Origin: Halovenus carboxidivorans
GTDB lineage: Archaea; Halobacteriota; Halobacteria; Halobacteriales; Haloarculaceae
Assembly (NCBI RefSeq): GCF_009831575.1
Contig: NZ_WUUT01000004.1
Span: 288,138-352,137, forward strand
DNA: 64,000 nt
Reading direction: 5' to 3'
Position numbers and translations under genes: made by a program
Shown here: in pieces, positions 975-54,242 of the stretch
Layout of the letters: each line of letters begins with the position of its first letter
How positions within the stretch are numbered: the stretch's first letter is position 1
Notes under the pieces: generated by a model
The model's input: only the letters and a program-made list of their open reading frames with translations
The model's database searches: none
What the model was told of the DNA's origin: nothing

Positions 975-988
975 TTAGGCATACCTAA
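975..988 (-). promoter_or_regulatory. DtxR/IdeR-like operator overlapping the promoter of the HTH gene
   Basis: TTAGGCATACCTAA is a palindrome with perfect 5-base arms (TTAGG/CCTAA). On the minus strand it reads TTAGGTATGCCTAA and matches the classical bacterial DtxR box (core TTAGGTTAGCCTAA) at 12 of 14 positions. The adjacent bases ACTTTT on the minus strand can serve as the TATA element, so a bound repressor would block the promoter. A related box sits at 21687-21697. Confidence 0.6.
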
Positions 989-1053
989 AAGTATCTTGCC
1001 GGGCAGGTATTCGGGGGTGGTTTATATGATTTTTATACCTCGTCGGGAGCAAG

Positions 1054-1512: not shown

Positions 1513-1580
1513 GCTCGTCTCTCGGTCACGGATCGTCCAAAGTATGGTCCCGAACCCGTTCGGACGACCCGCCCACCCTC

Positions 1581-2257: not shown

Positions 2258-2300
2258 ATGTCGTCCGGTTTGGCTGTCCGGGACGCCCCCCGGATTCGAC

Positions 2301-31621: not shown

Positions 31622-32962
31622 TTACAGAGTCAATCCAGCGGTGGCGGCGATCGTCGCGCCGGCGATGGCGGCCGACAGCGTGGCGAGAAAGTTCACTCCC
31701 TGATTCCCGCAGAGCCAGCCCTCGATGGTCGCGCCGAGAAGGCTGTCGACGGTCATCCCGACGATTCCCGCGGCGACGACCGCGCTGGCTCCGAGCGGGT
31801 CCACTGCCTCGAAGGTCACGAGCGCGATCCCGGCGACGATTGCGGCCCCGCAGACGCCGACGGCCTCGCCCTGCCAGGTCACCGCGCCGTCGGTGCCCGG
31901 TTCGACGACCTGTAACGTGGTAATCAATCGGGGGTTGTCGAAGAGCCCGCCGATCTCGCTAGAGAGGGTGTCGGCAAGTGCGGCCCCGACAGCGCCGGCG
32001 AAGGCGAAGAAAAACACCGCCTCCGAGACGCCGAGTTGCTGGCTAGCGGCCGCGCCGACGACGGCGAACAGCGCGACGAGAGAGTTCGCGAGCACGTTGC
32101 CGGTTCCGCGCGCCCCCTCGTTTTCCTCGGCGATCCCGCGGTCGAGTTTGCGGTCGTAGCGGTACTTCGAGGCCAGGCCGCCGATCCCGAAGAAGGCGAT
32201 CAACATCGCGAACCAGCCGTAACTGCCGAGGACGATCGTCAACAGCCCCAGCAGGACGCCGGTCAACATCCCCGGCAGCGACGCCGTGTCCAGTGCGAAG
32301 GAGGCGTAGCCGAGGACGACAGTCACGACGAGCGCGACGGCGATCCGTACCGTCGAGATTTCGACGGGGAGCGCGCCGAGAAACCACAACAGCAGGGCGA
32401 CGCTGACAAGCACCAGCACGTCGTCACGCTTGAACAGCGCCTCTCGGAGCAGGGCAGCGAGCAGGCTGCCGCTGGCCGCGAGGAAGGCGACGGTCTGGTA
32501 CTGCACGCTCGGCCCGGTCACCCCGGCGGCGAGAAACTGGGCACAGCTCCCGGCCAGAAAGCCGCCGCCGACGAACCCGGCCGTCGCCAGGAAGGGATCG
32601 CTCGTGGAGTGGCGGCTGGCCTGGCCGACGAGATTCCCGACCGAGAGCAGGAGGACGGTGCCGACGTAGATCGGCACCGGCATCCCGAACTCGATCGCCA
32701 GCACCGCCGTTCCGGCGGCCGCGAGGGCGAAGCCTGCGAGCCCGTACAACGTCCCGTCCCGACGGTCGCCCGGTCGTGCGAACAGCTCGAACAGGACCGT
32801 ATCGGCGTCGAGGGCGAGGGCACCGGCGGCGATCAACAGGAACGGACCGATCGCGAGTACCGTCGCCACGGCGGGTTCGTCGACCCCGTCGACGAACGGA
32901 ACGACGAAGGCGAACAGGCTCACGACGAAAAACGCCGCTGCTCGTCGGACGGGTCCAGTCAC
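31622..32962 (-). CDS. DUF92 membrane protein (phytol-phosphate kinase/CTP-transferase-like) with N-terminal extension
   Basis: This is a 446-residue integral membrane protein with about a dozen segments. The C-terminal ~240 residues match the DUF92/TMEM19 family (GGLASKYRYDRKLDRGIAEENEGARGTGNVLANS, then ALADTLSSEIGGLF), related to plant VTE6 phytyl-phosphate kinase. The N-terminal ~200 residues are an additional membrane region, perhaps a dolichol-kinase-like half. It may phosphorylate a prenyl alcohol or phosphate in lipid recycling; this is family inference. It overlaps nothing and is two bases from the acetyltransferase. Confidence 0.85.
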   Translation of the reverse strand: MTGPVRRAAAFFVVSLFAFVVPFVDGVDEPAVATVLAIGPFLLIAAGALALDADTVLFELFARPGDRRDGTLYGLAGFALAAAGTAVLAIEFGMPVPIYVGTVLLLSVGNLVGQASRHSTSDPFLATAGFVGGGFLAGSCAQFLAAGVTGPSVQYQTVAFLAASGSLLAALLREALFKRDDVLVLVSVALLLWFLGALPVEISTVRIAVALVVTVVLGYASFALDTASLPGMLTGVLLGLLTIVLGSYGWFAMLIAFFGIGGLASKYRYDRKLDRGIAEENEGARGTGNVLANSLVALFAVVGAAASQQLGVSEAVFFFAFAGAVGAALADTLSSEIGGLFDNPRLITTLQVVEPGTDGAVTWQGEAVGVCGAAIVAGIALVTFEAVDPLGASAVVAAGIVGMTVDSLLGATIEGWLCGNQGVNFLATLSAAIAGATIAATAGLTL

Positions 32963-33809: not shown

Positions 33810-34781
33810 TCAATACGAGAGGTCCGCGGTCGATCTGTCGAGACCGACCACGAGTACGGCACCGAACACGGCGGCACCGACGACGGTACCGATCCCGGTC
33901 GCCGTCGACTCCGTGACTGCGAGCACTTCGAGCACCGGCAGCCGAAGCGAGCCGAGCATCAGGCTCACGAGGAAGACCAGCGTCGCCTGCCGGTAGTGAT
34001 CCAGCGCCCACCGCACCACGTACGCGACGGTGAACACGCCGACCGCCGCCCCCGAGAGGAAGGCCGCGATCCGAATTCCGTCCTGAACGAGCGTGGCCGT
34101 GATCCCGTTTCGCCCCAGCGCCAACAGCCCGTCGACGAAGCCGTTCAGCGTCTCGGTCATGGTCTCGTACTGGCCGAGCAACAGCAGGATGAAGGCCCCG
34201 GAGATGCCCGGCAACAGCATACCGCTGATCGCGACCGACCCGGCGACGAAGATCACCGGCAGCGAACTCGGGATGGAGCCGCCGCCGGAGACGCCGGCGA
34301 GAGCGAACGCGAACAGGAAGCCGACGACCCCGGCTCCGGCCTGGCGTGGCCCGCGGAGCCAGTCCCGTCGGGCGAGCACGAGCGCGGACGCCCCGATCAG
34401 CCCGAAAAAGAAGGCGAAGGTCGGGCCCGGGACGACCTCCAGGGCGAACTCGACGACCCGGGCGAGCACCACCACTGCGGTCGCCATCCCGCCGCCGAGG
34501 GCGACCAGAAACGGCACGTCCATCGCCCGCAACTCCCGGGCCAGCGCCCGGCGGCCGGATCGGCGGTGGGCTGTCCGAAGATGTCTCACGACGGCGGGGT
34601 CGAGTTCGGTGAGCGCGCTGATCAACCGTTCGTAGACGCCGACGATCAGCGCAATCGTGCCCCCCGAGACACCGGGGACGGCGTCGGCGCTCCCCATCGC
34701 GAGCCCTTTCAGATAGATCGTCAGCAACGCCAGTACGCCGCCGTCGTGCGCTGCCGTCTCGGTTCGGTCTCGGTGATCCAC
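33810..34781 (-). CDS. DUF368 (PopT-like) polyprenyl-phosphate transporter
   Basis: This is a 323-residue integral membrane protein, GTG start at 34781. The DUF368 signature KGLAMGSADAVPGVSGGTIALI is at the N-terminus and LPGISGAFILLLLGQY marks the second half-repeat. Bacterial PopT proteins recycle undecaprenyl phosphate across the membrane. Here the gene stands 26 bases after aglB, the archaeal N-glycosylation enzyme that uses dolichol-phosphate carriers, so dolichol-phosphate recycling is the natural role. That role is inference from the family plus context. Confidence 0.9.
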   Translation of the reverse strand: MDHRDRTETAAHDGGVLALLTIYLKGLAMGSADAVPGVSGGTIALIVGVYERLISALTELDPAVVRHLRTAHRRSGRRALARELRAMDVPFLVALGGGMATAVVVLARVVEFALEVVPGPTFAFFFGLIGASALVLARRDWLRGPRQAGAGVVGFLFAFALAGVSGGGSIPSSLPVIFVAGSVAISGMLLPGISGAFILLLLGQYETMTETLNGFVDGLLALGRNGITATLVQDGIRIAAFLSGAAVGVFTVAYVVRWALDHYRQATLVFLVSLMLGSLRLPVLEVLAVTESTATGIGTVVGAAVFGAVLVVGLDRSTADLSY

Positions 34782-34807
34782 TGTTTGTATCTCTCGACGC
34801 TCGGCGC

Positions 34808-37800
34808 TCAGCTGCCGACGTTGTTCTCTACGCCCGTCGTGAACGACTCGATCGGTCGGGTACCGATGATGATCGCCGGATCGTTCTGCCTGGTGGAGTA
34901 GCTGAGTTCGACGGAGTCACCGGCCGCGACCGGCTCGGCCAGTGAGACGGTGACGGCCGTGTTCACCTCGCCGCTGGAGACTCCCGTCACCTCGACGGGC
35001 TCGCCGTTGACAGTCGCGTTCATCCTCGCGGCCGCGGCCGTCGGGTCGGCGACGGTCGTCTCCCCGTTGAACTCGACGGTGATCTGGTCGGCGGGCTCGC
35101 TGACGGTCGCCGACTGGACCTGCCCGGACTCAGACTCGTTCTCGTCGGTCCCGAAGTCCCGCTTGTCGAGTTCGACGGAGATCGGCTCCGAGTCCTCGGT
35201 GACGACGGCTTCCTCGGAGACGTTGAACTGGCCGCTGTAGAGGGCCTGCTCCTCCGAACTGAAGCCGGTGATCCGGTAGCTCCCGTTCGCACGGGCGCTG
35301 ACGTTGGTGTGTCCGTCCTCGACACCGATCTCGTCGTAGCCGGTCGTCGAGTACGGCACCGTCGTGTTGAACGTCCCGTCTTCGTCAGTTTCGATCCGCT
35401 GCGTGTACTGGAACTCGTTGCCGTTCGGTGGCTTGATCGGCACGCTGAGCCGCAGGGTTCCGTTCTCCGGCCCGTTCTCGCCCTGGATCGTCGCGCCGGG
35501 GACGCGCTCGAAGGTCTTCACCCACGCCGGGTTCGAGCCCTGCAGCGCCCGCTGTGACCGCAGGATCGCCTGCTGTGTCCTGTTCGGACCCAGCATACTC
35601 CGGTACGCCTGTGTGATTCCGGAGTTCGAGAGGTCCCGCTGAATCACGCTCAACCGCCCGAAACTGACGCCGCTGTTGGCTAGCTCCTGGACGTTCTCGT
35701 CTCCCTGTGACGGCACCGCGGACGTTTCGCTCATGTGTACCAGCCGGAAGTGCTTCAGCGCCTCGACGCGCTCCTCGGGCAGCACTCCGACGCCGCCGAC
35801 CTGTCTCGTGTCGGACTGAGACGCCCACTGACGGGCCTCCTGGAGGCTACCGAACGACCGGACCGCCGGCTGGCCGGCACCCGGCAGCCGTTCGACACCG
35901 ATCGCCTCGGGGGCCCGTGAACTCCCGTGGTAGTGATAGAGGCGGGTCAGCATCGAGTTGTAGTATCGCTGATCGTGAGCGATCAGCATCGTCTGCTGGA
36001 AGATCTCCTGGGCGGAGGTCAGCTGGCGCGGGTTCGCCGACGGATTGATGACCCGCTGGTAGAAGTCATCCGTCGAGTAGTCCGGGTGGAACTCTGCCGG
36101 CGCGAAGTACTTCCCGCCGACCTGGCCCTCCGTCTCGGCCATCTGCCAGTCGATCATCACGTATCGGGTCTCCGCGCCCTGGCTCTCGTCGAACTCCTTT
36201 TCGAGCGTGGTGAGTGCCTCGGACTCGTTTTGCGCCAGGAGGAACCTCGCCGCTGATTGAACGCCCTGCTGGAACGGGTTCGCGTTCGGAATCCGCTCTG
36301 CGCGGTTCGTTATCCAGTGGCCGTAGTCCCACCAGGACAACACTCCGTACGCTCCCTGGGGGTACTCGTAGTTTTCAGTCCGCTTGTACGTTCCCAGGTA
36401 ATCCATGGCCTCGCCGTCCGGGTTGTTGTACCGTCCCGGTTCGGGCGTGTTCTCCTCCATCCACTGGAGGCTCTGGTCCCAGACGAGCACGTTGCCGGGC
36501 TGAGAGAGGTTGTCAGCCCGTTCCGTCGCCGTCCGGTCGACGCCCGTGTACGGCAGCCCGAGCAACGGAACGAACATCACCATCACGATCAACACGAGCG
36601 TCAGCACCTGGTGGGTTTCGATGGTGAACTCGTCGGTGTCCGGCGTCCCGATCGTCTGGATCAGGAACCCGGCGACCGTCGCGTTGAGCGCTCCGATCGG
36701 CACGGTGAGATAGTAGCCGAACCGGGTCTGTGTCATCGTGGCCGCGATCATAAACGCCGCCCAGAAGACCATCAGCAACTGCTGGCCTTCCGGCTCTCGT
36801 TTCAGCGCCTGCCGGCCGAGAATCACGGCCGCGCCGACGCCCGCGGTGACGATACCCAGTCCGTACCGGTCGTAGAGATACTGCTGTGGGTTCTCCGGCG
36901 GTTGAGCTTCACCGATCGTCCCGGCGGTCGTCCCCGGGGAGGTGATGAAGCCGAAGACGCGGTCGACCTGCGAGATGAAAAAGTCGAACAGGCTCGGGAG
37001 GGCGAGGGCGACGAACACGACTCCGACGACGAGCAGTCCTCCGACGATTCCCGGATACGCCGACCGGGACAGGTCCCGGCTGTCGACCTCGCGAGAGAGC
37101 CAGGCCATGAAGACGAGTCCGAGCGCGACGACGAAGGCCAGCCCCGGCTGTACGAACGACCGACTCGCCACGCCCATGTCAAAAGTTCGAATCGTGCTCA
37201 ACTGGAGCACTCCCGCCGTCGTGAGGCTGATGACGCCGACAAACGCCGTGTGCTCCGGACTCCGGCCCCGGAGGTGCTCGAAGGAGAGATGGAAGATGAA
37301 GAAGACAGCGAGGATACCGAACAGCCAGGCGCCCGGGGGCCACGCCCAGAGATACATCCCCATCGCGATCCCGGTGAGTATCGACCAGCCGATGGTCCGC
37401 CGAAGCGCCGAAATCTCGCCGGCCGCGATCAGTTCGTACACCGGCCGTTCCTCCTCTGCGACCGAAAGCGACACCATGACGCCGAGAATCGACAGCGTCA
37501 TGAACAGCGCCTCGGCCGCGTGGTGTTGGGTGTGCCCGGCGAGGGTCATCTGGAGGAACCGGTCCGGCGCGAAGGCGATGAAGCCGACGACCACCAGCCC
37601 CCCGAACCGACCGCCGAGGCGTCGCCCGATCAGATACGCCGGGATGCAGATCGCGACCGCGAACAGCGGCGGCGCGAGCAGTACGACGTGATCGAAGAGG
37701 CTACTGCTCGGCGAGCCGAGTCCCAGGATGAGCGCGAGCAGCGCGATGATCTGATCGAACAGCGCCCCGAACTGCCCCGTGGAGGTCCCGTACGGGAAAT

Positions 37801-38056
37801 ACGTCCAGGGATCGAACGGCATCGTGCCGAGGAAGTTCTCCGTGGCGTACTCCGCCGAGCGGTGGTTGTACCACGGGTCGTTTCCGCTGTAATACACCTG
37901 TCCCTCGTAGATGAAGTTCCGCCAGTTGCGGATCCGGTTCCAGAAGACGAACCCGACGAGAAAGACGAGCAACGGATAGTGATAGAACTCCGTCAGCCAG
38001 TCTATCACTGCCTTTGTCTCGGATTCGTCTGCCAGCTGTTCCCGCCAGTTGCTCAT
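34808..38056 (-). CDS. aglB: Oligosaccharyltransferase AglB (STT3 homologue)
   Basis: This is a 1082-residue membrane enzyme. It has about 13 N-terminal membrane segments with the first external-loop catalytic motif DPWYNHR (divalent metal site) and a later large globular domain with WWDYGHW near residue 575, which recognises the N-glycosylation sequon; DK-type motifs follow. It transfers glycan from dolichol phosphate to Asn of secreted proteins such as the S-layer. The C-terminal ~350 residues are Ig-like. DUF368 follows downstream. Confidence 0.96.
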   Translation of the reverse strand: MSNWREQLADESETKAVIDWLTEFYHYPLLVFLVGFVFWNRIRNWRNFIYEGQVYYSGNDPWYNHRSAEYATENFLGTMPFDPWTYFPYGTSTGQFGALFDQIIALLALILGLGSPSSSLFDHVVLLAPPLFAVAICIPAYLIGRRLGGRFGGLVVVGFIAFAPDRFLQMTLAGHTQHHAAEALFMTLSILGVMVSLSVAEEERPVYELIAAGEISALRRTIGWSILTGIAMGMYLWAWPPGAWLFGILAVFFIFHLSFEHLRGRSPEHTAFVGVISLTTAGVLQLSTIRTFDMGVASRSFVQPGLAFVVALGLVFMAWLSREVDSRDLSRSAYPGIVGGLLVVGVVFVALALPSLFDFFISQVDRVFGFITSPGTTAGTIGEAQPPENPQQYLYDRYGLGIVTAGVGAAVILGRQALKREPEGQQLLMVFWAAFMIAATMTQTRFGYYLTVPIGALNATVAGFLIQTIGTPDTDEFTIETHQVLTLVLIVMVMFVPLLGLPYTGVDRTATERADNLSQPGNVLVWDQSLQWMEENTPEPGRYNNPDGEAMDYLGTYKRTENYEYPQGAYGVLSWWDYGHWITNRAERIPNANPFQQGVQSAARFLLAQNESEALTTLEKEFDESQGAETRYVMIDWQMAETEGQVGGKYFAPAEFHPDYSTDDFYQRVINPSANPRQLTSAQEIFQQTMLIAHDQRYYNSMLTRLYHYHGSSRAPEAIGVERLPGAGQPAVRSFGSLQEARQWASQSDTRQVGGVGVLPEERVEALKHFRLVHMSETSAVPSQGDENVQELANSGVSFGRLSVIQRDLSNSGITQAYRSMLGPNRTQQAILRSQRALQGSNPAWVKTFERVPGATIQGENGPENGTLRLSVPIKPPNGNEFQYTQRIETDEDGTFNTTVPYSTTGYDEIGVEDGHTNVSARANGSYRITGFSSEEQALYSGQFNVSEEAVVTEDSEPISVELDKRDFGTDENESESGQVQSATVSEPADQITVEFNGETTVADPTAAAARMNATVNGEPVEVTGVSSGEVNTAVTVSLAEPVAAGDSVELSYSTRQNDPAIIIGTRPIESFTTGVENNVGS

Positions 38057-40400: not shown

Positions 40401-40446
40401 AAACTTGGTGGCCTCTAGTTCTAGCTTCTAGACAGAGGTGTCGAAG

Positions 40447-41571
40447 ATGACGCACAGCGATGAGAACAAGGTTGATGGAATTGTCCTCGTGACAGAGGAT
40501 GCTCAAGAATATCTAAATCCGAGGCAGGAGGTTACATATCGTGAACACCGGCGAGAGCTCGCGGAGTGGATGCTTGCGCTTGGAAAGAATCCGGACAAGG
40601 CGGAAGGTTACAGCCATTCCACTGCGAAGAACAGGATGAATCGGTTGGATCTGTTTTACCGTTTTGTTTGGGATCGTGAGGGCCGGTACGTTCAGGATTT
40701 AACTACTGATGATGCGGATGACTGGATGCGGCATTTGGCGCGGCAGGAGATGAAGGAGTCTACGAAGTGCCACTATCAGAAGGCGGCGAAGACGTTGTTC
40801 AAGTGGAAGAGGCACGCGCGTAACAAGGATGTGGAGTGGGATCCGGAAATTGAGTATAGTGATCCGTCTACGACTTATACACCTCGGGATTATCTTACCA
40901 GGGATGATCGCCGTAAGCTCCGGGAGGCGGCTATGGAGTACGGGAGTGTGCCGCATTACAACTCGGTGACTCCTGAGGAGCGTGAGAGGTGGAAGACGTA
41001 TCTTGCGCAGCGTTTGCAGAAGCCGAAGGAAGAAATCACGATGAAGGACTGGCAGAAGGCTAACTCGTTCAAGTATACTTCGATGATTCATGTTGCGTTG
41101 GATGCGGGCCTACGTCCTATCGAAATCAAACGTGCCAACGTTTCCTGGGTTGATACACAAAATGGTATACTTCGTATCCCGAGAGAGGAGTCCAGTAAGA
41201 ACCGGGAGAACTGGATAGTGGCGTTGAAAGAGGAGACTAGTCAGATCCTGAAGCGTTGGGTTGATGAGCGGGAGACACGGGAGAAGTACGATGGCCGGGA
41301 TGCGTTGTGGCTGACGATGTACGGTAACAGGTACGACAAGGATTCGTTCAGGGACGTGTTCCGGAAGATTGCCGAAGAAGCTAATCTGGACTTGGAGAAC
41401 CGTGATCTCACGCCGTACTCGATACGGCACAGTACTGCGACCTACGTAGCCGAGGAGGAAGGGTTAGCTGTTGCAGCGCAGCAGTGCCGGCATAAATCGA
41501 AGAGAACGACAGAGAAGTACGAGCACAGTTCGACGGCCCGGCAACAAGACGCCGTCAACAACATAGACTGA
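40447..41571 (+). CDS. Tyrosine recombinase/integrase
   Basis: This is a 374-residue protein. An N-terminal SAM-like DNA-binding domain (about residues 30-120, with STAKNRMNRLDLFYRFVWD) precedes the catalytic domain. Catalytic Arg is in DAGLRPIEIKRAN, the beta-hairpin Lys in EESSKNRENW, box II is PYSIRHSTATY with Arg but Tyr in place of the first His, then His in QQCRHKSKR and the nucleophile Tyr in TTEKYEHS. It catalyses integration and excision at the tRNA-Thr site. The ATG at 40447 has a GAGGTG ribosome site; GTG 40438 is the alternative. Base composition is that of the element. Confidence 0.93.
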   Translation: MTHSDENKVDGIVLVTEDAQEYLNPRQEVTYREHRRELAEWMLALGKNPDKAEGYSHSTAKNRMNRLDLFYRFVWDREGRYVQDLTTDDADDWMRHLARQEMKESTKCHYQKAAKTLFKWKRHARNKDVEWDPEIEYSDPSTTYTPRDYLTRDDRRKLREAAMEYGSVPHYNSVTPEERERWKTYLAQRLQKPKEEITMKDWQKANSFKYTSMIHVALDAGLRPIEIKRANVSWVDTQNGILRIPREESSKNRENWIVALKEETSQILKRWVDERETREKYDGRDALWLTMYGNRYDKDSFRDVFRKIAEEANLDLENRDLTPYSIRHSTATYVAEEEGLAVAAQQCRHKSKRTTEKYEHSSTARQQDAVNNID

Positions 41572-41815
41572 AAAATTCTCTTCCTTTCTCTCTTCTGTAA
41601 ATCCCGTATACAACGGTTAGTCGTTGGAGTTTAGGACCTGTTTCAAACCCTTTTTTCAAACCAGGGAGTGATTGGTAGTGGCTGATTCAGGGCTGATCTT
41701 CTGACCTGGTGTTGGTTGGCACACCTGTTTTCGGTGCTGATTTTCTAAGGTGTTCCGGGGTGGTAGGTTAGATATTTAATATTTTCTTACCGTGGTCTTA
41801 CTATGGTGAGATTTT
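41572..41815. other. Intergenic region downstream of integrase
   Basis: These 244 bases are non-coding as far as I can see. ATATTTAATA at 41773-41782 is a likely TATA element for the RHH gene at 41816. A T-rich stretch (TTTTTTCAAACC near 41652) follows the integrase and may terminate it. Confidence 0.4.
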
Positions 41816-42061
41816 GTGGCGTCGTTGACGATTAAGCTGCCGGATGACCAGAAAAACGAGATAGAAGCGGTAGCTCAAAGAAAAAACTACAATAGTACTT
41901 CTGAGTGCGTGCGTGAAGCACTGCGGGACAAAGTCGAGGAAGACCTTGTTCTACGCCCAGAAGTAGCAGAGAAGCTGCGGAAACGAATAAAAAAGTACGA
42001 AGAAGAAGAGTCGGAAGGCTACACATTGGAAGAGTTAGACGAGGAACTAGGGTTGTATTGA
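41816..42061 (+). CDS. Ribbon-helix-helix antitoxin-like protein (ParD/CopG type)
   Basis: This is an 81-residue protein with GTG start, preceded by GGTGAG as ribosome site. The N-terminal ribbon-helix-helix (LTIKLPDDQKNEIEAVAQR, then STSECVREALRDKV) binds DNA; the Glu/Lys-rich C-terminal helix (KLRKRIKKYEEEE, then LEELDEELGLY) would embrace a RelE/ParE-type toxin. The next codon after its stop is an ATG of a 25-residue fragment, not an intact toxin, so the gene is an orphan antitoxin or a regulator. Confidence 0.75.
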   Translation: MASLTIKLPDDQKNEIEAVAQRKNYNSTSECVREALRDKVEEDLVLRPEVAEKLRKRIKKYEEEESEGYTLEELDEELGLY

Positions 42062-42139
42062 ATGGAACTCGATGTCCAGGAAGGCGCGGTTGAAGCCCTT
42101 AGTATGGGGCTCTGGAGATTTGAAAGATGTATGGGGTAA
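42062..42139 (+). pseudogene. 25-residue ORF where a toxin would be expected
   Basis: The ATG directly abuts the antitoxin-like stop (TGAATG). The frame encodes only 25 residues (MELDVQEGAVEALSMGLWR...) and ends at TAA 42137-42139. The junction geometry is that of a coupled antitoxin-toxin operon, but the frame is far too short for a ParE/RelE toxin. I read it as a remnant, with chance as the alternative. Confidence 0.3.
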
Positions 42140-42147
42140 AGCAGGTC

Positions 42148-42633
42148 CTACTCGAACAGGTTCTTGGCTCTTCTGTAGATGGGTGCGCCGAGCCAGTCTC
42201 GTTGTTCTGCGAGGTCGTCCAGTTTGTTTAGTGCTTCCTCGTGCTCCAGTACGTCTCTCTGGATGAGTGCTTTCAGTACGATGGGCGAGATCGCCACCTG
42301 GGCGTCCGCTACTGTCTGAAGTTCTGGGAGTGCTCGGAGATCGTCAGTGATCAAGAACTCCGCATCTATTTCCTGAGTGAGGAGTGCACAGCTTCCTTCT
42401 CCTTGGTCCACGCGAGAAGACGTGAATTCTTCTTTAACTTGATGAGTAGTTATCTGACTTAAATTTTTGAGTACATTTTCTGCGGCGTTTCCAGGGTTGT
42501 CGTTGTATTCTGCGGTGTCTTCCAGTTCTTCAATTACTGTTTCGGTGGTGTGGACGTTGAATTCTGTTAGAAAAATGTTGAGGAGGTCGATAGAGGCGAG
42601 TGAAACGAGTGCGCTTGTATCCGCTATGATCAT
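42148..42633 (-). CDS. PIN-domain ribonuclease, VapC-like toxin
   Basis: This is a 161-residue protein with PIN acidic residues in place: Asp5 in MIIADTSALVSLA, Glu in ETVIEELEDTAEY, the GEGSCALLTQEI block and Asp in FLITDDLRALPEL. PIN toxins cut RNA, often tRNA or rRNA. The upstream RHH gene is 13 bases away on the same strand and is the expected antitoxin. The tail ends LGAPIYRRAKNLFE. Confidence 0.85.
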   Translation of the reverse strand: MIIADTSALVSLASIDLLNIFLTEFNVHTTETVIEELEDTAEYNDNPGNAAENVLKNLSQITTHQVKEEFTSSRVDQGEGSCALLTQEIDAEFLITDDLRALPELQTVADAQVAISPIVLKALIQRDVLEHEEALNKLDDLAEQRDWLGAPIYRRAKNLFE

Positions 42634-42646
42634 TTCTTTTCAGCCT

Positions 42647-42949
42647 CTACAGTTCTGCGAGGTCGTCGGCCAAGTCTTCGCCCTGGTCGAGAATGTTTTT
42701 TGAGGCACGGACGGATTCGGCGTCCTGTCTACCGATAAATTCTTTGAGGACTTCAAATCCGATCTGGTCGTCGAGGTAGAGTTCCACGACTGCTTCTTTG
42801 AATTTTTCGTCGTCCTCTATGTCGTCCAAGTAGTCTTGTAGTGCTTCTACTATTATCTCAGTCCGGTTCTTGTGCGTGACTTCTGCTGCCACATCCGCCT
42901 TCTCAACCAGGTTTTCTGGGAGACGGAAATTAACTCTGGTACTTCCCAT
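42647..42949 (-). CDS. Ribbon-helix-helix antitoxin of the PIN toxin
   Basis: This is a 100-residue protein. RVNFRLPENLVEKADVAAE and NRTEIIVEALQDYLDD form the RHH; the C-terminal half (VVELYLDDQIGFEVLKEFI, then ASKNILDQ) is a second helical part. ATG 42949 is preceded by AGGTGAG. It should neutralise the PIN protein and repress its own promoter; a perfect 14-base palindrome lies between its TATA element and start. Confidence 0.82.
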   Translation of the reverse strand: MGSTRVNFRLPENLVEKADVAAEVTHKNRTEIIVEALQDYLDDIEDDEKFKEAVVELYLDDQIGFEVLKEFIGRQDAESVRASKNILDQGEDLADDLAEL

Positions 42950-42971
42950 TCAACTCACCTAATGTATGTAC

Positions 42972-42985
42972 ATTGTGACCACAAT
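42972..42985 (-). promoter_or_regulatory. Palindromic operator abutting the TATA element of the RHH-PIN pair
   Basis: ATTGTGACCACAAT has perfect 6-base arms around a 2-base centre. It abuts the minus-strand TATA element (TTTAAAAT, about 42984-42992), so binding of the RHH protein here would block transcription. An adjacent 8-base palindrome ATGTACAT is at 42966-42973. Confidence 0.55.
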
Positions 42986-43105
42986 TTTAAATAAGTTTCT
43001 TCAATCGAGTATACACTCCTGGATCACAGAATAGTGTAACTGCCTCAGAGAGTAGCCTGACAGAGTCATCGAATCGGTAGAGAGAACCAGATTCTGGAAA
43101 TGGGT

Positions 43106-46100
43106 TCAGTGGTTATTGTCGAGAAAAGTTTGAGCTCGGTCGTCTCTCTCAGAGGCGTAAATTTGAGCGGTTTCGAAGGCTTTAGTATAGACTTCGTCAC
43201 CGGATTCGAACTCCTCGAATGCTGGGCGTAGGATGTCTGCCACATCATCGTTGAAATCCTGTCCAAACGGTCTCTGATACCCCGTGACAAGCTTGTGGAA
43301 AATCCCTACTGCGGTCTCTGTGTAGTCTGCTGCTTGATGTGATAGATATTCTTCCAGAGTTGACCAGACACCCATGCTGTGTTGATGATTACCGATATGG
43401 AATATCGATCTTCTCAGAAGATCGTCGACCTCAGATAAATCAACTCTATTTCCAACATGGCTTAGGTAGCGGACAAACCATGTGATTTCTTCCGAATACG
43501 TGTCATCATCACCCACTTGTTCAACTCGCCTTTCCCATAGTGACCGGGTTTTATCCCATTTATCGTAAGCTTTGTCCTCTTCCTGATCTTCTCCCCATCT
43601 CCAGAGATTCCACGCGACTTGTCTTGCTAGATCTGGATCGCCACGATCATACAGATAGGCTAGTAAAGACTCAGACCATTCTTCAAGATCGTACTCAAAT
43701 AGGTAGTTCCCAAGGAGATGTCCGGCCATTTGCTGGTCGGCGTTTATTGTCTCGGTAGTCTTGCCTTCGGCCATTAAGTCGATAGCATGGAAGTAATACT
43801 TCCTCAAGTACGGGAAAACATCGGGATGAGATTGGCTGAACGCGACATAGGAGTCCCAAGCTGCAGTAAATCTTTCCGTGTCTTTTTGACTCTGGCTACG
43901 CGGAAAAATGTCTGTCAGATGATTTATCATCCAGTCCTCGTCAACAGGCCACAGAGTTAGGAGTCGCCGACCGAAGACGGAGTGAACCCCGAGCGAGATA
44001 TCGTTCATTCTCTCCTCCAATTTTTCAATTACTTTTGAGTCAGGTTCTGAGTCCTTGTCAACGGCTACCCGTCGCGCATAGATTATGAGGGCATCTACAG
44101 CTACTGGGCGCACCGTGTTTAATGCCGTATGTGATGGATCATTGTGGCCTGCGTATCCTTCCGGAGGCCGGTCTGTACTAATGTCTGGATCAGGATCATC
44201 TGCTAGGGTTAAGATGATTTCTCGAACTCTGTCTTCTTCTTGTAGGAAGTATTCGTACAGATCAGTATTGCTGAATCCATCTCTGAGGAGCCATCCTACT
44301 CGTTTTCTCGTGTGTTTCGGCCATTCCTCTGTATCCGCGATTATACTTTCAGAGAGTTCCCAAAGTGCTTCTCGGAAACCTTGGCTGTCTAATATTTCTC
44401 GTTCGTCTCCCATCCGGTCTCTCAGGTGTCCAAGAAGCCGGTTTGAGTAGGATGCAGGGGCTTCTCGAAGCCTTGATATTTCAGTGGCATATTCTTCTGG
44501 GTTGTCCAAGATTATATCTGCAATTTCTTCCGCTGCTCCCTGTCTCCCAATTTCCTCCACCGACCCCGTCCTTCCAGATCCTTCTATAGCTGATTCATAC
44601 CATTCTTGCTCCTCAAAGGGTTCTTCGATACAGAAATCGATCAGCTCACTTGGAGAGTATTCTTCGAGTTCGGATCTGGGTTCTGGGCTTTCATGTGAGA
44701 CAAACCCGCCTCTTATCGCGGGTGCTTCAGGATCTTCTGGTTCGTCTTCGAATTGATCAAGTAGTTCAGAGAGCTGCTCTTCCGCTTCTTCGGATAGATC
44801 TGCCCTGATAGGCCAGAGCCGATCCCTGATCCATCGATCGGAGCGCCTTTCGACAAATTCTTCTACACTTGTGTCTTCGAACTCGTCCTGTCTATCCTCG
44901 GCAATCCGCTCAAAGGAATCACGAACCGGAACCGAGGTTATCACTTCAACTACCTCTTGTTGTTGATCTTCTGGGAGAGAACTGAACCCGTGCTTCAGTA
45001 ACAGGTTAAATTCTTTCGTTAATCGATTGTCCCGGTAATTCTCTTCATCAATCAGCTCTTCTCCAACCAAGTCGGTGTGGTCTTCACTGTGTTCACGGAG
45101 CAGATAGAATCCAAATCCACGGAGTATAACGTTCGAATCAAGATATTCCGCAATTTTTTCTCGTTGAGACTTTACATCAGATAATTCAAACCAGATATCA
45201 ATTGTTTCTCGAAGGAACCCAACAAATAATTCAAATGGCTTATTCCTGTCGTCTTTTTCTATACTAAAGTTGGAAACCGCAAACTGGTGGAAGAAATGGA
45301 TGTCGACAACTTCCTTTTCTCTTGCCTCCGCTCTCACGGTGGCAGCATCATTCAGTTTTTCCTCGAATAGTTCGAGCGTTTGATTCGGGCGATTTCGTAC
45401 TAATCTCTCAAGGGTTCCTTCTTCGAATAATGAAGTCAGATAATATGAACCCATGATATCCTCATTGCGTCCCTCCGGCTCGGCTTCTAGACGAATAGTG
45501 AGCAGTGAATCAATCAGGTCTAGTCCCTCATCAAAATGCTCTCCATTCACGAGATCTTCAGCGAGTTCCGCGGACCGAGAATAGTACATATCGAGCCGCG
45601 GTTCCAACTCGTCTAGGCCGTCTTTCACAACATCATAAAGATCAACCCGATATTCCAGAGGTAATTCCTGGATGATGGAGACCACCAACGCTTTCTCGCT
45701 TCGATCTAAACCGCTAATATTCTCCCTGATTACGGAACTGACTTCTTCAGGATGTAGACTTGCGATATCGTGGAGGTAGGCCAGAAGGTGTCGCGGAGGG
45801 CTTTGGAATCTGTCCGTATCCACCAAGGCCTGAATCCAAGAAGTGTCGGTCTCTTCATCGAAGAAGTAATTGTAGAGTTTTTCTCTTGATTCGAGTTTTT
45901 CAAGGACTGTTTCAGTGACTGGCGTATTCACAGAGGCGTCCCATCGTTTCACGACATCCAGTATCTTCGATGCCCAGTAGAATTGGAACCCTTCTTCGTC
46001 AAGGACTTCTTCCAAAAAATCATCTGCGCCCTCCGGTAACTCCTCTTCCCTATCAGTATAGACCGCAAACATCCACTTGACCACGTCATTACTGATATTC

Positions 46101-47626
46101 TCGGATAGATCGTTGATGACATCTTGGAACAAGTGTTCGTCATCGACGGTTCGATTGACTAGTTGCCAGGCATAGAGGTATAACTGGAATTGGCGGTGCC
46201 TGAATCGGAATACACGGTCTCTCCCCGATTCTGTAACTCTCCGTATAGCCCCGATCGAGAGCAATTCCCTATCGGTCCATAGGATTTCATCCACGGAAAA
46301 TACGGAGTTCCCGCTTTCAGTGGTTTCAATTGCGTGTTCAACTGCTCTATCGATTACTTGATCACCTCTCCGCTGACCGTCGCTAGGGTGATCTTCTGCC
46401 AAGAGTTCTCGATATTCCTCCCAGACCGCGACCTGTTCTGTTACGTCCTCCAGGTCTGATCCTTCTGCGACTAGTGTCCCTATTACATCAAGGTATTCTA
46501 TTTCTTCACAGAGTTCGATCAAGTCTTGGGTGGGCGAGGTGATTCCCAATTCTTCTAGATGCTCCTCGGCTTGGGTTTCACTTAGAGTGTTGACCTCGAT
46601 CTCGTTGTCGAAATATCCAGAAACGGTGAGATCTTGGAATTCATCATAGTTGTCTAATTCGTATGTTCGGCACGCGAATATTACGCCGACTCCGTTTAAT
46701 TGTGCGACTGAATCAATTATCTCACTGTATACTTCTCCTGTTTCTCTTGTAGTGTCGTCTAATTGATCAAAAATAACTACCAAGGTTCTGTTTGCTGATA
46801 CCTGATGGATACATCTCTTCAAAGATGTTTCAAGACCATCGAATATGTCGGAGTCGGATGAGATCGTTGCATGAGCACTTGCGTCGATGAAGAGTAGTTG
46901 GTGGTTGCTTTCTTCGCATACTCGTTTCAGTATCCCGCTTTTTCCAACACCACCACGCCCCTTGATTATCGAATTATCGGGGTTGTCTTGGTCTTCGATG
47001 CTTTCTATAATTCGGCTAGTTTCTGATCGGGGGATATGGCCGATGCCTTCGATTTCGTTATCGATCCGATCCAGTTTTTCGTTTGATTCTCCTTCGAATG
47101 TAGTTAGGACCTCTTGGAGAGACGGGTATTTCTCAGTGATTGTGGAATAGTTGGCTAAAGCTGCTGCAAGCGTGAATAGGAACACTAGACCAGTCCCAAA
47201 CAGTATATCTACTATACCTAGATCAAGGAAAACTAAGTCTGATATTGTAAGAACCCCTATACTGTAAAGCAGTAGAACTGCGACAATCCCGATAAGGAGG
47301 TAAGTTGTTATAACCTTGAATCGACCTTTTGTCGTATGAAATTCTTTTTCTGTAGTTCTCTCGGCTGATTTGGCAGTGTATCGATTGATAAGTAATGGAA
47401 GTAGGATGATTGAGACTATGGAGAGTACAGCTAGGCCGGGCTTGGAGAGATCAGAGCTTCTGAGGAAAGACTGGAACCCTGCAACCGTCAGACCTAGAGA
47501 TCCAACAGCCCATGCAATCGATTTTGTGAAATTAGTTTCATCTTCAAACGTAGAATATCGCAAAACAGTGTCTCTTCCGAGGGCGAAATACTCCCGGAGT
47601 GCCTCGCCTATGGAAGAGAACTCCAT
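43106..47626 (-). CDS. Membrane-anchored STAND-like P-loop NTPase with long alpha-solenoid
   Basis: This is a 1506-residue protein. I chose ATG 47626 (GGCAGGT before it); TTG 47647 is the only upstream option. Four membrane segments lie in residues ~35-160 with a short loop between pairs. The P-loop domain starts near 215: Walker A GRGGVGKSGILKRV (about 223), Walker B TLVVIFDQLDD (about 281), and GVGVIFACRTYEL (sensor). After a winged-helix-like region, about 1000 residues of helical repeats follow, likely a ligand-sensing solenoid. This order (effector, NTPase, solenoid) is that of STAND immune ATPases. No nuclease or TIR effector is present; the membrane part would be the effector. It has its own promoter. 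Confidence 0.75.
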   Translation of the reverse strand: MEFSSIGEALREYFALGRDTVLRYSTFEDETNFTKSIAWAVGSLGLTVAGFQSFLRSSDLSKPGLAVLSIVSIILLPLLINRYTAKSAERTTEKEFHTTKGRFKVITTYLLIGIVAVLLLYSIGVLTISDLVFLDLGIVDILFGTGLVFLFTLAAALANYSTITEKYPSLQEVLTTFEGESNEKLDRIDNEIEGIGHIPRSETSRIIESIEDQDNPDNSIIKGRGGVGKSGILKRVCEESNHQLLFIDASAHATISSDSDIFDGLETSLKRCIHQVSANRTLVVIFDQLDDTTRETGEVYSEIIDSVAQLNGVGVIFACRTYELDNYDEFQDLTVSGYFDNEIEVNTLSETQAEEHLEELGITSPTQDLIELCEEIEYLDVIGTLVAEGSDLEDVTEQVAVWEEYRELLAEDHPSDGQRRGDQVIDRAVEHAIETTESGNSVFSVDEILWTDRELLSIGAIRRVTESGRDRVFRFRHRQFQLYLYAWQLVNRTVDDEHLFQDVINDLSENISNDVVKWMFAVYTDREEELPEGADDFLEEVLDEEGFQFYWASKILDVVKRWDASVNTPVTETVLEKLESREKLYNYFFDEETDTSWIQALVDTDRFQSPPRHLLAYLHDIASLHPEEVSSVIRENISGLDRSEKALVVSIIQELPLEYRVDLYDVVKDGLDELEPRLDMYYSRSAELAEDLVNGEHFDEGLDLIDSLLTIRLEAEPEGRNEDIMGSYYLTSLFEEGTLERLVRNRPNQTLELFEEKLNDAATVRAEAREKEVVDIHFFHQFAVSNFSIEKDDRNKPFELFVGFLRETIDIWFELSDVKSQREKIAEYLDSNVILRGFGFYLLREHSEDHTDLVGEELIDEENYRDNRLTKEFNLLLKHGFSSLPEDQQQEVVEVITSVPVRDSFERIAEDRQDEFEDTSVEEFVERRSDRWIRDRLWPIRADLSEEAEEQLSELLDQFEDEPEDPEAPAIRGGFVSHESPEPRSELEEYSPSELIDFCIEEPFEEQEWYESAIEGSGRTGSVEEIGRQGAAEEIADIILDNPEEYATEISRLREAPASYSNRLLGHLRDRMGDEREILDSQGFREALWELSESIIADTEEWPKHTRKRVGWLLRDGFSNTDLYEYFLQEEDRVREIILTLADDPDPDISTDRPPEGYAGHNDPSHTALNTVRPVAVDALIIYARRVAVDKDSEPDSKVIEKLEERMNDISLGVHSVFGRRLLTLWPVDEDWMINHLTDIFPRSQSQKDTERFTAAWDSYVAFSQSHPDVFPYLRKYYFHAIDLMAEGKTTETINADQQMAGHLLGNYLFEYDLEEWSESLLAYLYDRGDPDLARQVAWNLWRWGEDQEEDKAYDKWDKTRSLWERRVEQVGDDDTYSEEITWFVRYLSHVGNRVDLSEVDDLLRRSIFHIGNHQHSMGVWSTLEEYLSHQAADYTETAVGIFHKLVTGYQRPFGQDFNDDVADILRPAFEEFESGDEVYTKAFETAQIYASERDDRAQTFLDNNH

Positions 47627-47650
47627 TACCTGCCATAGCGGTGTCAATCG

Positions 47651-47658
47651 TTAAAATG
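47651..47658 (-). promoter_or_regulatory. TATA element of the STAND-like NTPase gene
   Basis: ATTTTAA on the minus strand is centred about 28 bases upstream of ATG 47626. It implies separate, almost leaderless transcription of the NTPase, independent of the secretion operon that ends at 47677. Confidence 0.45.
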
Positions 47659-47676
47659 GTAACGGGAAGACGTGAA

Positions 47677-48093
47677 TCAGCGTTCCAAGTGGTTTTGAAC
47701 CTGTTTTCGGAATGTTTGGAACGACTGCTGTAGTTCTGCCATATCCTGTTCAAGTTGGTGTATTCGTTGGACAAGCTCTCTGTGACTCAGATTCTCGTAA
47801 TCGTCTAGATCCTCTGGTTCCGAGTGTTGAAGGTACTGTTCTCCTTTTTCAGTGAGTTCTGCTTGTTTGGGGTGTTGGAATACGCGTTTTTGTCCGTCGA
47901 TGACTCTTTCTACCATGCCGTCAGGTTTTGAGACTTCTATAAGTCCGTGTTCTTCGAGTTTTTGGAATGCGTATGTGACGTGGTGGTTTTCGAGAGTGGT
48001 TGCTGCTGTGATTTTTTGTACGTCGTCGTTGCCGCTGTTGATTTGCTGGAGGATGAGGTGTTCTTTGTCTCTGAGTTGTGTGTTGTCAGTCAT
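47677..48093 (-). CDS. Winged-helix regulator with C-terminal coiled coil, last gene of the secretion operon
   Basis: This is a 138-residue protein. A winged HTH (about residues 10-75: KITAATTLENHHVTYAFQKLEEHG and QAELTEKGEQYL) is joined to a C-terminal coiled coil (LVQRIHQLEQDMAELQQSFQTF) for dimerisation. It overlaps the VirD4-like gene by eight bases and so is made with the secretion machinery. It is a good candidate for binding the palindrome at 54709-54727 upstream of the same operon, as feedback control; that is inference. Confidence 0.8.
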   Translation of the reverse strand: MTDNTQLRDKEHLILQQINSGNDDVQKITAATTLENHHVTYAFQKLEEHGLIEVSKPDGMVERVIDGQKRVFQHPKQAELTEKGEQYLQHSEPEDLDDYENLSHRELVQRIHQLEQDMAELQQSFQTFRKQVQNHLER

Positions 48094-49996
48094 CGGCTTG
48101 TAGGACGCATTCGGTTTCTAATGCGGAGCAGAACCCCGAGTCGTCGCGGTATAGGCAGAAGTTTTCCAGGTCTTCACGGCTGTTCCCCTCTAATTCAGGA
48201 CAATTGTTTTCGACTTCGTCCTGTTCCTCTAACTCGTCGCCGGTAAGTTCAAGTATACGGTACTCTGCTTGTTTCAGTTCTTCAACGTCGGTAACGGGCT
48301 CTCCGTCTTTCTTGTAGTGGCTGTAGCTGCCGTTCTCGTCTTCGTGTTCACTGCCTCTCCTATTGACCGGATCTGACAGGATGTTTTCCAGTTTTGCTGC
48401 TTCGCCGTCTTGGACAATGAAGAAGACTTCTCGATTCTCTTCTTCGGCGCGTTGCAGGTTTTTGAGTACTTTTCCTGGTTTGGAGAGGGTGGAGTTTTCG
48501 GCTTCGAGGTGTGCGATTTCTCCGTTCGGCAGGTGGATGTGGCCGTCCGGTTTTTCATCGCCCTGGTCCTGGTAAAGCAGGTTGACCTGGAATCCGCGTT
48601 CTTCGAGGTGTTTCTTGGCTTCCGCAAGCAGTTCTTGGTGTTGTTCTTTACCGGCGTTTTGTGATTCCCCGAGGGACTGGGTTAATGCGATATTGTCCTC
48701 GGCGGTGGAGGCCGCCGCTTTCTCCTTCTTTATTTTGTCGACGTTGCTGTAGTCGGTTTCCCAGGGCGGGTAGGTGTCGAAGATGACCGCGTTTCTCTGA
48801 TTTTTCTCCGATGGTTTCTGAAGTGCAGCCCGGTATTTTCCAAGGGATGTTAACGTGGTTTTGTCGATTCCTTGGAGCATTGCTGCTATACGGGCTGTGT
48901 CTTCGCTTCCACTGGGGTTGAAGACGGTCTTGGTCCGGCAGTTGTTTGCAACTGCTCTACGCATTTCGGGTGCTAACTGGTGGAGGTACTGGGTTGCGAG
49001 CCAGCAGCCGAGCCGGTATTCGCGTGCTTCTGAGAGGATTTTGGCGAAGTTGCTTCCTTCACCGGCGAAGTTCTGGAGTTCGTCGACGAAGAGGTGGAAG
49101 AATTGTCTCTCGTCGGCGGATTGTGTGATCCGGCTCTGTGCTGCTGCCCAGATCTTGGTGGTGACGATGGATCCGACGAGTTCGGAGACTGTGCCGCCGA
49201 CTTCACCTTTCTGGATATCTACCAGTACGATTTTGCCTTCGTTGACTGCTTTTCTGAAGTCAATTCCTGATTCTTCAGCCCCGATAACTCTCCGGATGGT
49301 CGGGTTCATGACGAAGTCATTCAGCCGGCGCTGCAACGGCTCCATTTCGTATGAGGACATGTCCTCTTTGACTCGGACGAGCTGTTCTCGTATCACTGAG
49401 TCCTGTGTCTGGTCGATGAGTTCGGTTAGTGGTTCGTCTTGGATTACGCAGCGGAAGACATCGACGAGTGTCTTCGATTCGTTTTTCTTAATGTTGAGGT
49501 CGAGGTGTGCGCGTAGCAGGGTTTCCAGGACTCTTCCGAATTGGTCGCCCCAGTTCTCACTTTGGCGTTTGAATAGGTCGATGAGGTCGGAGACGATGAT
49601 CTCCTTTTGGTTCTCCAGCTGAGTCGTATTCATGTCCTCCGTAGTGTGTGGTTCAAGGACGTTAACCGGTGTAACCGGCTCCTGACCAGGGTTGATATAG
49701 ACCACGTCGTCGATCCGGTCCTCAGGGAGTTTGGCGATGAATTCGTCGATAAGACCGCCTTTCGGGTTGATGATGCAGAGGCCGTGGCCTTTGTAAGCGT
49801 CTTGTAGTGCGACGTGAAGCAGCAACTGGCTTTTCCCGAATCCTGTAGGCCCGATGTTTAGGACGTGAGTCAGTAGTTTGTCGTCCTGTATTCCGACGTG
49901 TTCTTCGACCTCGAACATCGATTCCCGGGATCCGAGGTAGGTTCTTTCCTGGTTTTCGGTGCTCTCAATCAGCTTTTTGACTTCGTCTGGTTTCAT
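48086..49996 (-). CDS. VirD4/TraD-like coupling ATPase with C-terminal nuclease-like domain
   Basis: This is a 636-residue protein. Near the N-terminus is Walker A NIGPTGFGKSQLLLHV (49-56). Walker B is FVDELQNFAGEGSNFAKIL with the TraM-recognition-like AREYRLGCWLATQYLHQL. It lacks the N-terminal membrane anchor of classical VirD4 proteins. From about residue 470 a different domain begins: KPDGHIHLPNGEIAHLEAEN plus SKPGKVLKNLQRA resembles a PD-(D/E)xK nuclease core. The final ~30 residues hold four Cys that could bind zinc. It would recruit DNA to the secretion channel. ATGA overlap with the upstream gene. Confidence 0.85.
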   Translation of the reverse strand: MKPDEVKKLIESTENQERTYLGSRESMFEVEEHVGIQDDKLLTHVLNIGPTGFGKSQLLLHVALQDAYKGHGLCIINPKGGLIDEFIAKLPEDRIDDVVYINPGQEPVTPVNVLEPHTTEDMNTTQLENQKEIIVSDLIDLFKRQSENWGDQFGRVLETLLRAHLDLNIKKNESKTLVDVFRCVIQDEPLTELIDQTQDSVIREQLVRVKEDMSSYEMEPLQRRLNDFVMNPTIRRVIGAEESGIDFRKAVNEGKIVLVDIQKGEVGGTVSELVGSIVTTKIWAAAQSRITQSADERQFFHLFVDELQNFAGEGSNFAKILSEAREYRLGCWLATQYLHQLAPEMRRAVANNCRTKTVFNPSGSEDTARIAAMLQGIDKTTLTSLGKYRAALQKPSEKNQRNAVIFDTYPPWETDYSNVDKIKKEKAAASTAEDNIALTQSLGESQNAGKEQHQELLAEAKKHLEERGFQVNLLYQDQGDEKPDGHIHLPNGEIAHLEAENSTLSKPGKVLKNLQRAEEENREVFFIVQDGEAAKLENILSDPVNRRGSEHEDENGSYSHYKKDGEPVTDVEELKQAEYRILELTGDELEEQDEVENNCPELEGNSREDLENFCLYRDDSGFCSALETECVLQADD

Positions 49997-50970
49997 GGTT
50001 TGCTGTAGTTGATGTTTTCCTGGGTGAGGTCTGGAAGTGCGATCAGGCCGGCAAGCTCGTTACGGCTGGCCTGGAAGCTGCGATTCCAATAACCGAATCG
50101 TCTCTTTGCTACTGTATCTGAGAAGTTGAGGAGGCGTTTCTCGCGGAGCGTAGTGATAGTGACTGCGTCGAAATATTGGCCTGTCTCTCCGCTCTCGTAC
50201 ACGTTGAAGCCGCCTGCAAGCTCCTTTACTCGGCTTGGGGTATACTTTCCGGCTCCAGCGATGAAGAACCGTATTGAGGTGTGGAATCGTCGTGTACCGG
50301 CTTTTTCTTCGACTGCGTCTGCCTGTTTTCGTTCTCGTGGTGTTGGTGGCCTGTTCCCCCACAGTTTCTCTTTCTCCTTTCGAAGGTAGCCGATCCGTTG
50401 GTAGGCTCTCCGCTTCCAGTACCACCGACGCAATGGTTTCCCTGCGACCGGACGGAACAGTACCTGAATGACTACCCGGGTGTCCTGCATCGCGTGCCGG
50501 TGGAGTGCTGAGGCAACCGAGTTCGTGGGTGGGGTGTCGAATTCTGTGCGTAACGGGTAGCGGTCCAATCGGCCCAAGGTTAGGATGCCGCCACCGACTG
50601 TGTCTCCCTCTTTTACTGGGAGGCCGTCAGCCCCGGATCCGAATCCTATGTCGGGTATTTCGGTGGCGAGATGGGTTCTTAATTTTCGTTCTAAGCGCTT
50701 TGTGGGTAGTGTGAATTGGAAGCGAAGGCTGTCCGGGATGTCACGTCGGATCTCGAATGCGGCCGTCGGTGAAGCGTTTTTCACCCCGAAGAACGACGAC
50801 TGTATTTCTGTGAGTCCTCGGACCAGTTGTCCGAGTGTAGCTGGCAGACTCTTGTTTTTCGGCGGTTTGACTGCTACAGTGTATTTTTCTGGTGTTCCTT
50901 CTCGGAGTTCCGTAGCTTCGTCCTCGTTGACCTCCGTATAGGTATTGAGTATCTGGTGGCTCAGAGACAT
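49993..50970 (-). CDS. Conserved secretion-operon protein of unknown function
   Basis: This is a 325-residue soluble protein. No P-loop and no membrane segment. It is beta/alpha mixed, with blocks VKPPKNKSLPATLGQLVRG and RRYHTS-like basic middle (KPLRRWYWKRRAYQRIGYLRKE). It lies between VirB4 (TAATG junction) and the VirD4-like ATPase (ATGA overlap), so it is made in fixed ratio with both. It may substitute for the membrane or N-terminal half missing from the coupling ATPase. I recognise no named family with confidence. Confidence 0.75.
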   Translation of the reverse strand: MSLSHQILNTYTEVNEDEATELREGTPEKYTVAVKPPKNKSLPATLGQLVRGLTEIQSSFFGVKNASPTAAFEIRRDIPDSLRFQFTLPTKRLERKLRTHLATEIPDIGFGSGADGLPVKEGDTVGGGILTLGRLDRYPLRTEFDTPPTNSVASALHRHAMQDTRVVIQVLFRPVAGKPLRRWYWKRRAYQRIGYLRKEKEKLWGNRPPTPRERKQADAVEEKAGTRRFHTSIRFFIAGAGKYTPSRVKELAGGFNVYESGETGQYFDAVTITTLREKRLLNFSDTVAKRRFGYWNRSFQASRNELAGLIALPDLTQENINYSKP

Positions 50971-54241: not shown

Positions 54242-54242
54242 C

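Follow-up and report, generated by a model that had tools for sequence, protein, structure and literature searches.

In a 64,000-nucleotide stretch of the Halovenus carboxidivorans genome (RefSeq assembly GCF_009831575.1, contig NZ_WUUT01000004.1, positions 288,138 to 352,137; hereafter the window), a gene of the DUF368 family lies directly downstream of aglB, the gene for the archaeal oligosaccharyltransferase, and we found this pair to be old, conserved and often nearly overlapping in haloarchaea. It is likely that the haloarchaeal DUF368 protein of the subfamily present here, designated A, is a two-half transporter that returns the dolichol phosphate released by the neighbouring AglB to the inner leaflet of the membrane. 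Given this gene order, DUF368 is a strong candidate, open to testing, for the protein that brings the carrier back in haloarchaeal protein glycosylation. The direct basis for this reading is the identity of the genes, their conserved order, their close or overlapping junctions, the existence of two subfamilies and the repeat architecture of the protein. DUF368 probably shares this task with at least one other route; DedA is present too.

Bacterial DUF368 members act in the return of undecaprenyl phosphate, and their mutants build up this carrier at the cell surface under alkaline conditions (PMC9876793; here and below, papers are cited for the parts of their text that were available). In the same study, the Haloferax volcanii protein HVO_RS12060 at least partly rescued a Vibrio cholerae DUF368 mutant, enrichment of DUF368 in Halobacteria was noted, and dolichol phosphate was named in one sentence (PMC9876793). 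The window gene and HVO_RS12060 are both haloarchaeal DUF368 genes, the V. cholerae complementation belonging to the latter. The function of the family is already known and an archaeal role has already been suggested; new here are the aglB–DUF368 neighbourhood and the split into subfamilies A and B. No report of the linkage was found in the literature searched, which comprised titles and abstract starts and covered few subscription papers, and no paper mentioning DUF368 together with AglB turned up there. The available text of two papers on haloarchaeal N-glycosylation (PMC5867893, PMC3871713) names no protein that would bring the used carrier back, and the string 'recycl' is absent from the main text of the second.

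Both genes of the window are encoded on the reverse strand and both identities are confirmed by Pfam; the 26-base distance between them, given in a preliminary description of this DNA, is borne out (Table 1). The DUF368 reading frame matches PF04018 over its whole length (E = 2.6e-59; 201.2 bits against a gathering cut-off of 26; profile positions 1–236 of 246) and is the sole copy found in the genome, which is 98% complete. The one other in-frame start found ahead of the first conserved motif, TTG, would give a spacer of 80 nucleotides. The AglB reading frame scores above cut-off for the AglB core (PF22627), STT3 (PF02516) and AglB_L1 (PF18079), and reaches 818.5 bits with NCBIfam TIGR04154 (cut-off 450). 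It has 3waj and 5gmy as solved relatives, and its translation contains WWDYG, which we take to be the STT3/AglB motif.

The order of the two genes extends far beyond this genome. We drew an even sample of 194 genomes of the class Halobacteria, searching again those missing from the first listings, and found DUF368 in 192 and the AglB core likewise in 192, with both present in 191. DUF368 lies downstream of the AglB core on the same strand in 133 of these 191 genomes, at a core-to-domain distance of 909–3445 nucleotides (median 1181); unlinked pairs that share a contig are at least 66 kb apart, and the remaining unlinked pairs are on different contigs. Nine families (linked/total, under our family numbers: f1 18/40, f2 13/13, f3 19/48, f4 64/69, f6 5/6, f7 6/6, f8 5/5, f9 2/2, f10 1/2) and 46 of 64 genera show the linked order. 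If genes were placed at random, DUF368 would fall on the strand of aglB and no more than about 3.5 kb downstream of it with a probability near 0.0005 per genome; the genomes are non-independent, but the order is common to nine families. Chance adjacency is ruled out by this recurrence and by the distant or other-contig position of the unlinked pairs, and the adjacency is not unique to this genome, the case in which the preliminary description would have dropped its proposal.

A pattern scan of a separate, named collection yielded 80 loci, 21 of them haloarchaeal. AglB is directly upstream of DUF368 in 15 of the 21, including Haloferax mucosum, Haloferax sp. Q22, Halorubrum coriense, Natrinema ejinorense, Halorhabdus amylolytica and Haladaptatus salinisoli (two Haloferax and two Halorubrum are among the 15); it is not directly upstream in Halonotius roseus, Halobellus rufus, Natronorubrum halalkaliphilum, Natrarchaeobius chitinivorans and two metagenome-assembled genomes. 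In the class sample, genus g30, which we infer to be Haloferax, is linked in all nine genomes. Such a conserved neighbourhood in genetically tractable haloarchaea makes the question of carrier return directly testable.

Junctions between the two genes are often tight. With start codons chosen mechanically, DUF368 could start between −8 and +10 nucleotides relative to the aglB stop in 20 of the 34 linked loci measured, and several of these start codons overlap that stop as TGATG, TAATG or ATGA. Eight linked genomes have a wider distance of 2.7–3.4 kb; in seven of them (the exception is G043) the interval holds a UDP-glucose/GDP-mannose dehydrogenase gene of the aglM type, accompanied in one by a nucleotidyl transferase gene of the aglF type. 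Four g30 genomes carry an aglM-type gene in this position, and in H. volcanii the agl cluster spans aglJ to aglM (PMC5867893). Neighbours are common to related genomes by descent, and the order could in principle be merely inherited, with no functional link; we consider this very unlikely, because the flanking genes on either side differ between families while the pair stays, the order is kept with close junctions in nine families, and the genes inserted between the two are mostly of the aglM type. As a separate observation, short C-terminal DUF368 fragments lie about 1–1.5 kb downstream of the aglB-linked copy in G074 and G090 (loci L223 and L224), and are perhaps the remnants of a tandem duplicate.

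Phylogenetic analysis divided the haloarchaeal DUF368 proteins into two subfamilies. In a first tree of 100 DUF368 proteins, all 61 haloarchaeal copies form one clade (SH-aLRT 100; L138, included in the count of 21 named loci, is absent from this tree). A second tree, built on 128 copies that came from 116 haloarchaeal genomes, contains a clade, B, of 62 copies (support 95; 38 from f3, 23 from f1 and one from f8), none of which is aglB-linked, and all copies outside it were designated subfamily A. B is nested in the first tree within a group of 33 rows (support 99), the other 11 rows of which are Haloferacaceae or f4 copies. The window DUF368 falls outside clade B and groups with aglB-linked copies in both trees. 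Subfamily A comprises 66 typed copies, 57 linked and nine unlinked (G029, G030, G131, G048, G095, G054, G125, G128 and G161). G161 has its AglB core 1.4 kb from a contig end and its DUF368 match on another contig, from base 254 onward, so the two are probably linked across the gap, though this is unproven; the unlinked A copy of G030 adjoins an aglM-type gene. DUF368 was typed in 57 of the 133 linked genomes, the other 76 being assumed to carry A, and nine genomes hold a linked A copy plus B.

All 58 unlinked genomes were typed, and since 49 of them are accounted for by subfamily B, which is the only type they carry, we rejected the view that every unlinked genome is a counter-example. Fifty typed genomes without A carry B (these 49 and G117), against just two in the class sample, G021 and the fragmented G186, in which no DUF368 was found. 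Because the unlinked genomes are so largely B-only and genomes without DUF368 so few, it seems that B has taken the place of A, an exchange that speaks for a needed function common to both. The split between linked A and free B copies offers natural experiments.

The predicted structure is consistent with a transporter. An AlphaFold2 model of the window DUF368 is confident (pLDDT 90.8, pTM 0.86) and all-helical, with helix breaks at residues 34–39 and 190–194, i.e. at the PG(V/I)SG motifs. The two halves of the protein are homologous (HHalign probability 98%, E = 1.7e-13), each with a PGxSG motif, and residues P36, G37, S39 and G40 as well as L190, P191, G192, S194 and G195 are invariant across 59 aligned sequences (window included; drawn from 79 picked loci, with several flavobacterial and some other rows left out). 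Two homologous halves with broken helices suggest, on the evidence of the model, an inverted-repeat transporter. VCA0040 of V. cholerae and SAOUHSC_00846/PopT of Staphylococcus aureus belong to the same Pfam family, PF04018, and have the same PG(V/I)SG motifs; the haloarchaeal protein differs from them in that its host uses dolichol phosphate as the carrier and has no peptidoglycan, its gene stands beside an oligosaccharyltransferase, and it falls below the NCBIfam equivalog cut-offs. No solved relative was found by sequence at E 0.1, and Foldseek returned no match to the model at E ≤ 0.001. A second look at fold matches gave a ZIP transporter at Z 10 followed by many MFS chains; these matches do not rise clearly above the background given for helical models, so we make no fold claim.

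BacA/UppP, which differs from DUF368 in being a phosphatase, was also compared. The window DUF368 has no PF02673 (BacA/UppP) match at E 0.001. When the full-length DUF368 profile was compared with haloarchaeal BacA (L255–L281), the first motif regions aligned with a score of 25.9 (HHalign probability 3.7%), and the C half aligned to the second BacA motif with a score of 26.1 (probability 6.9%); neither score was reached by any of 120 block shuffles. With a score of 19.3, the N half by itself stayed inside the range of the shuffles; it aligned beside the second motif and gives no support. Foldseek lists the BacA structure 5oon weakly (E 0.43). The resemblance, at the level of motifs, is suggestive and a lead only. 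BacA/UppP is present in 27 of 59 relatives, with the window genome counted. Also, a 9-kb contig of G021 (L229, L262) carries a second STT3-type match, and a BacA/UppP gene stands back to back with it.

Archaeal N-glycans so far derive from dolichol monophosphate (PMC4476749), and AglB should therefore release dolichol phosphate itself outside the cell. In the mechanism we propose, AglB would hand the glycan over to asparagine at the outer membrane face and leave its carrier, dolichol phosphate, bare there; DUF368 would most likely bind the phosphate between the two broken-helix PG(V/I)SG motifs and carry the lipid back to the inner leaflet for reloading, with N-glycosylation as its putative main client. 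A closer relationship, in which subfamily A is a flippase dedicated to dolichol-phosphate return, is produced together with AglB and perhaps joins it in a complex that takes over the released carrier directly, is possible though doubtful. If this were true, the return of dolichol phosphate could be assigned to a specific molecule. To our knowledge, the equivalent step in eukaryotes is also open.

The position of DUF368 at the same locus as AglB could also be read in the outward direction, with DUF368 moving glycan-charged dolichol phosphate as the lipid-linked oligosaccharide flippase that feeds AglB, and in the outward step the main H. volcanii tetrasaccharide is described as 'flipped' with the protein unnamed (PMC3871713). 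We give this direction little credence, as bacterial DUF368 members act on the bare carrier (PMC9876793, PMC12826051) and as Wzx/MOP-type flippases adjoin aglB in some loci, 78–230 nucleotides upstream on the same strand in 6 of 42 loci, or in 5 of 41 distinct loci when L128 and L289 are taken as one H. mucosum genome. AglR and Agl15 of H. volcanii resemble DUF368 as membrane proteins of pathways moving dolichol-linked sugars but differ in being proposed for the charged carrier, outward (PMC3871713). If subfamily A is a dedicated return flippase as outlined above, the three-gene row of some species would represent the whole membrane cycle, with Wzx/MOP taking the charged carrier out, AglB transferring the glycan and DUF368 bringing the empty carrier back.

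Beyond Halobacteria, we surveyed DUF368 across 246 genomes sampled from the phylum, of which 43 belong to the class and 203 do not (44 of the 246 with completeness below 90% or contamination above 5%). DUF368 is present in 34 of the 203 non-haloarchaeal genomes and was not found in 169; the AglB core occurs in 32 of the 34 and STT3 in the remaining two. Among the matches listed, none of the 34 has DUF368 within 6 kb of AglB, and 13 have it on the same contig as an AglB match at a distance of at least 14 kb; in the other 21 the two are on different contigs, for which adjacency across contig ends is still possible. Four of five f29 genomes have DUF368 14–16 kb upstream of AglB on the same strand. 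In the controls Methanosarcina acetivorans, Methanocaldococcus jannaschii and Sulfolobus acidocaldarius, STT3 and DedA are present and DUF368 was not found. We therefore rejected DUF368 as a universal archaeal carrier-return protein, and as far as sampled its closeness to AglB is a haloarchaeal feature. The preliminary description had proposed DUF368 as the missing carrier-return step of archaeal N-glycosylation, to be examined through its adjacency to aglB across archaea; for haloarchaea the adjacency holds and the step is supported, the latter through the conserved pair and the partial complementation (PMC9876793), and neither finds support for archaea generally. DedA (PF09335, E 0.001) is found in 87 of the 203 genomes outside the class, leaving by subtraction 91 with neither family.

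Two further observations concern loci beyond the haloarchaea. In the non-haloarchaeal archaeal loci L067, L069, L073, L076 and L078, DUF368 lies near an apgM-type phosphoglycerate mutase gene, and most of these loci also contain NAD-epimerase and pyruvate oxidoreductase subunit genes, a different conserved neighbourhood. Flavobacterial loci including L153, L165, L169, L171 and L174 have a second open reading frame with a PGxSG motif about 1 kb after the start of the DUF368 match, perhaps a tandem paralogue.

Several observations weigh against the return of AglB-released carrier by subfamily A. The window junction is outside the 20 close junctions and has no overlap. Same-strand genes stand on both sides of the pair (DUF5804 and enoyl-CoA hydratase genes upstream of aglB, Sir2-type and DUF92 genes downstream of DUF368), so adjacency in this genome alone is weak evidence. 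The window DUF368 is also a PF04018 family member but no named equivalog, scoring 181.5 and 87 bits with the NCBIfam transporter models NF052564 and NF052563, far below the cut-off of 400. An aglM-type gene that separates the pair is encoded on the other strand in six cases out of seven, so aglB and DUF368 are there glycosylation-locus neighbours and not parts of one simple transcript. Proximity to aglB is not required, given the 58 unlinked genomes of 191 and the B copies that stand mostly beside unrelated genes: the seven annotated B neighbours are peptidase, FMN-oxidoreductase, MutS-like, amidohydrolase-like and uncharacterised genes, and two f3 loci, L096 and L099, have on the other strand, immediately past the B copy, a gene that clusters with the GT2 glycosyltransferases. 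G021, with AglB present and DUF368 not found, indicates that DUF368 can be dispensed with, and G117 (L060), rated 100% complete, has no AglB/STT3 by PF22627 and PF02516 and only a B copy. Finally, no biochemical test in an archaeon was found in the literature searched, and DedA could do the same job.

G117, a single case, fits a B subfamily that serves more than AglB. It is well possible that DUF368 as a whole recycles polyprenyl phosphate generally, for every glycoconjugate that depends on dolichol phosphate (exopolysaccharide, DolP-mannose and glycolipids) and for alkaline and high-salt fitness, with AglB merely a large client. The B copy kept by G117, the location of most B copies away from glycosylation genes, the near-universal presence of DUF368 in the class and the tie of the family to salt and alkaline growth (PMC9876793) are all in keeping with such a role; the placement of 57 of 66 typed A copies beside aglB, often with a near-overlapping junction, is not predicted by a general housekeeping role.

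DedA/UptA (PF09335) is alike as a proposed carrier-return family present in haloarchaea, and differs from DUF368 in sequence family and in not being found at the aglB locus. All 43 class genomes of the phylum sample carry it at E 0.001, with one to six matches each; G021 combines AglB with two DedA matches, and conditional sharing of the job has been reported in bacteria (PMC9876793). It nevertheless seems rather unlikely that DedA is the main haloarchaeal route for dolichol phosphate and DUF368 an accessory for special conditions. Among the matches listed, none of the DedA matches of class genomes comes closer than 10 kb to the AglB core, the nearest being about 11 kb away in the f2 genomes G010 and G039. 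None of the proteins of the window locus matches PF09335 at E 0.001, and the one DedA match of that genome is on another contig.

Table 1. Positions of the aglB–DUF368 pair and of other features in the window.
Feature	Positions	Strand	Details
DUF368 / PopT / VCA0040-like polyprenyl-phosphate transporter family member, subfamily A	33810-34781	-	323 aa, GTG start, PF04018
AglB, archaeal oligosaccharyltransferase (STT3)	34808-38056	-	1082 aa; PF22627, PF02516, PF18079, TIGR04154
Spacer, aglB stop to DUF368 start	34782-34807	-	26 nt, read from sequence
First DUF368 motif, VPGVSG	34662-34679	-	residues 35-40, at break between two helices
Second, repeat-related DUF368 motif, LPGISG	34197-34214	-	residues 190-195, at helix break
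DUF92 integral membrane protein	31622-32962	-	PF01940; TIGR00297 below cut-off
Protein with Dsr1- and Avs4-like parts	43106-47647	-	1513 aa
Region with integrase and ATPase genes	40438-54307		possible integrated element

The DUF92 gene is the second gene downstream of DUF368. Prenyl-phosphate kinases are among the relatives of DUF92, which makes a link to carrier-lipid salvage possible; the gene did not cluster with any gene of the other loci compared. On the other side of the pair, the 1513-residue protein resembles the defence protein Dsr1 in its C-terminal part and Avs4 at residues ~176–387. The region around it resembles an integrated element close to the glycosylation genes: it holds a phage-type integrase, TraG/TrwB- and HerA-like ATPases, and a small gene that matches PDC-S70, a PADLOC candidate, and has a small partner gene.

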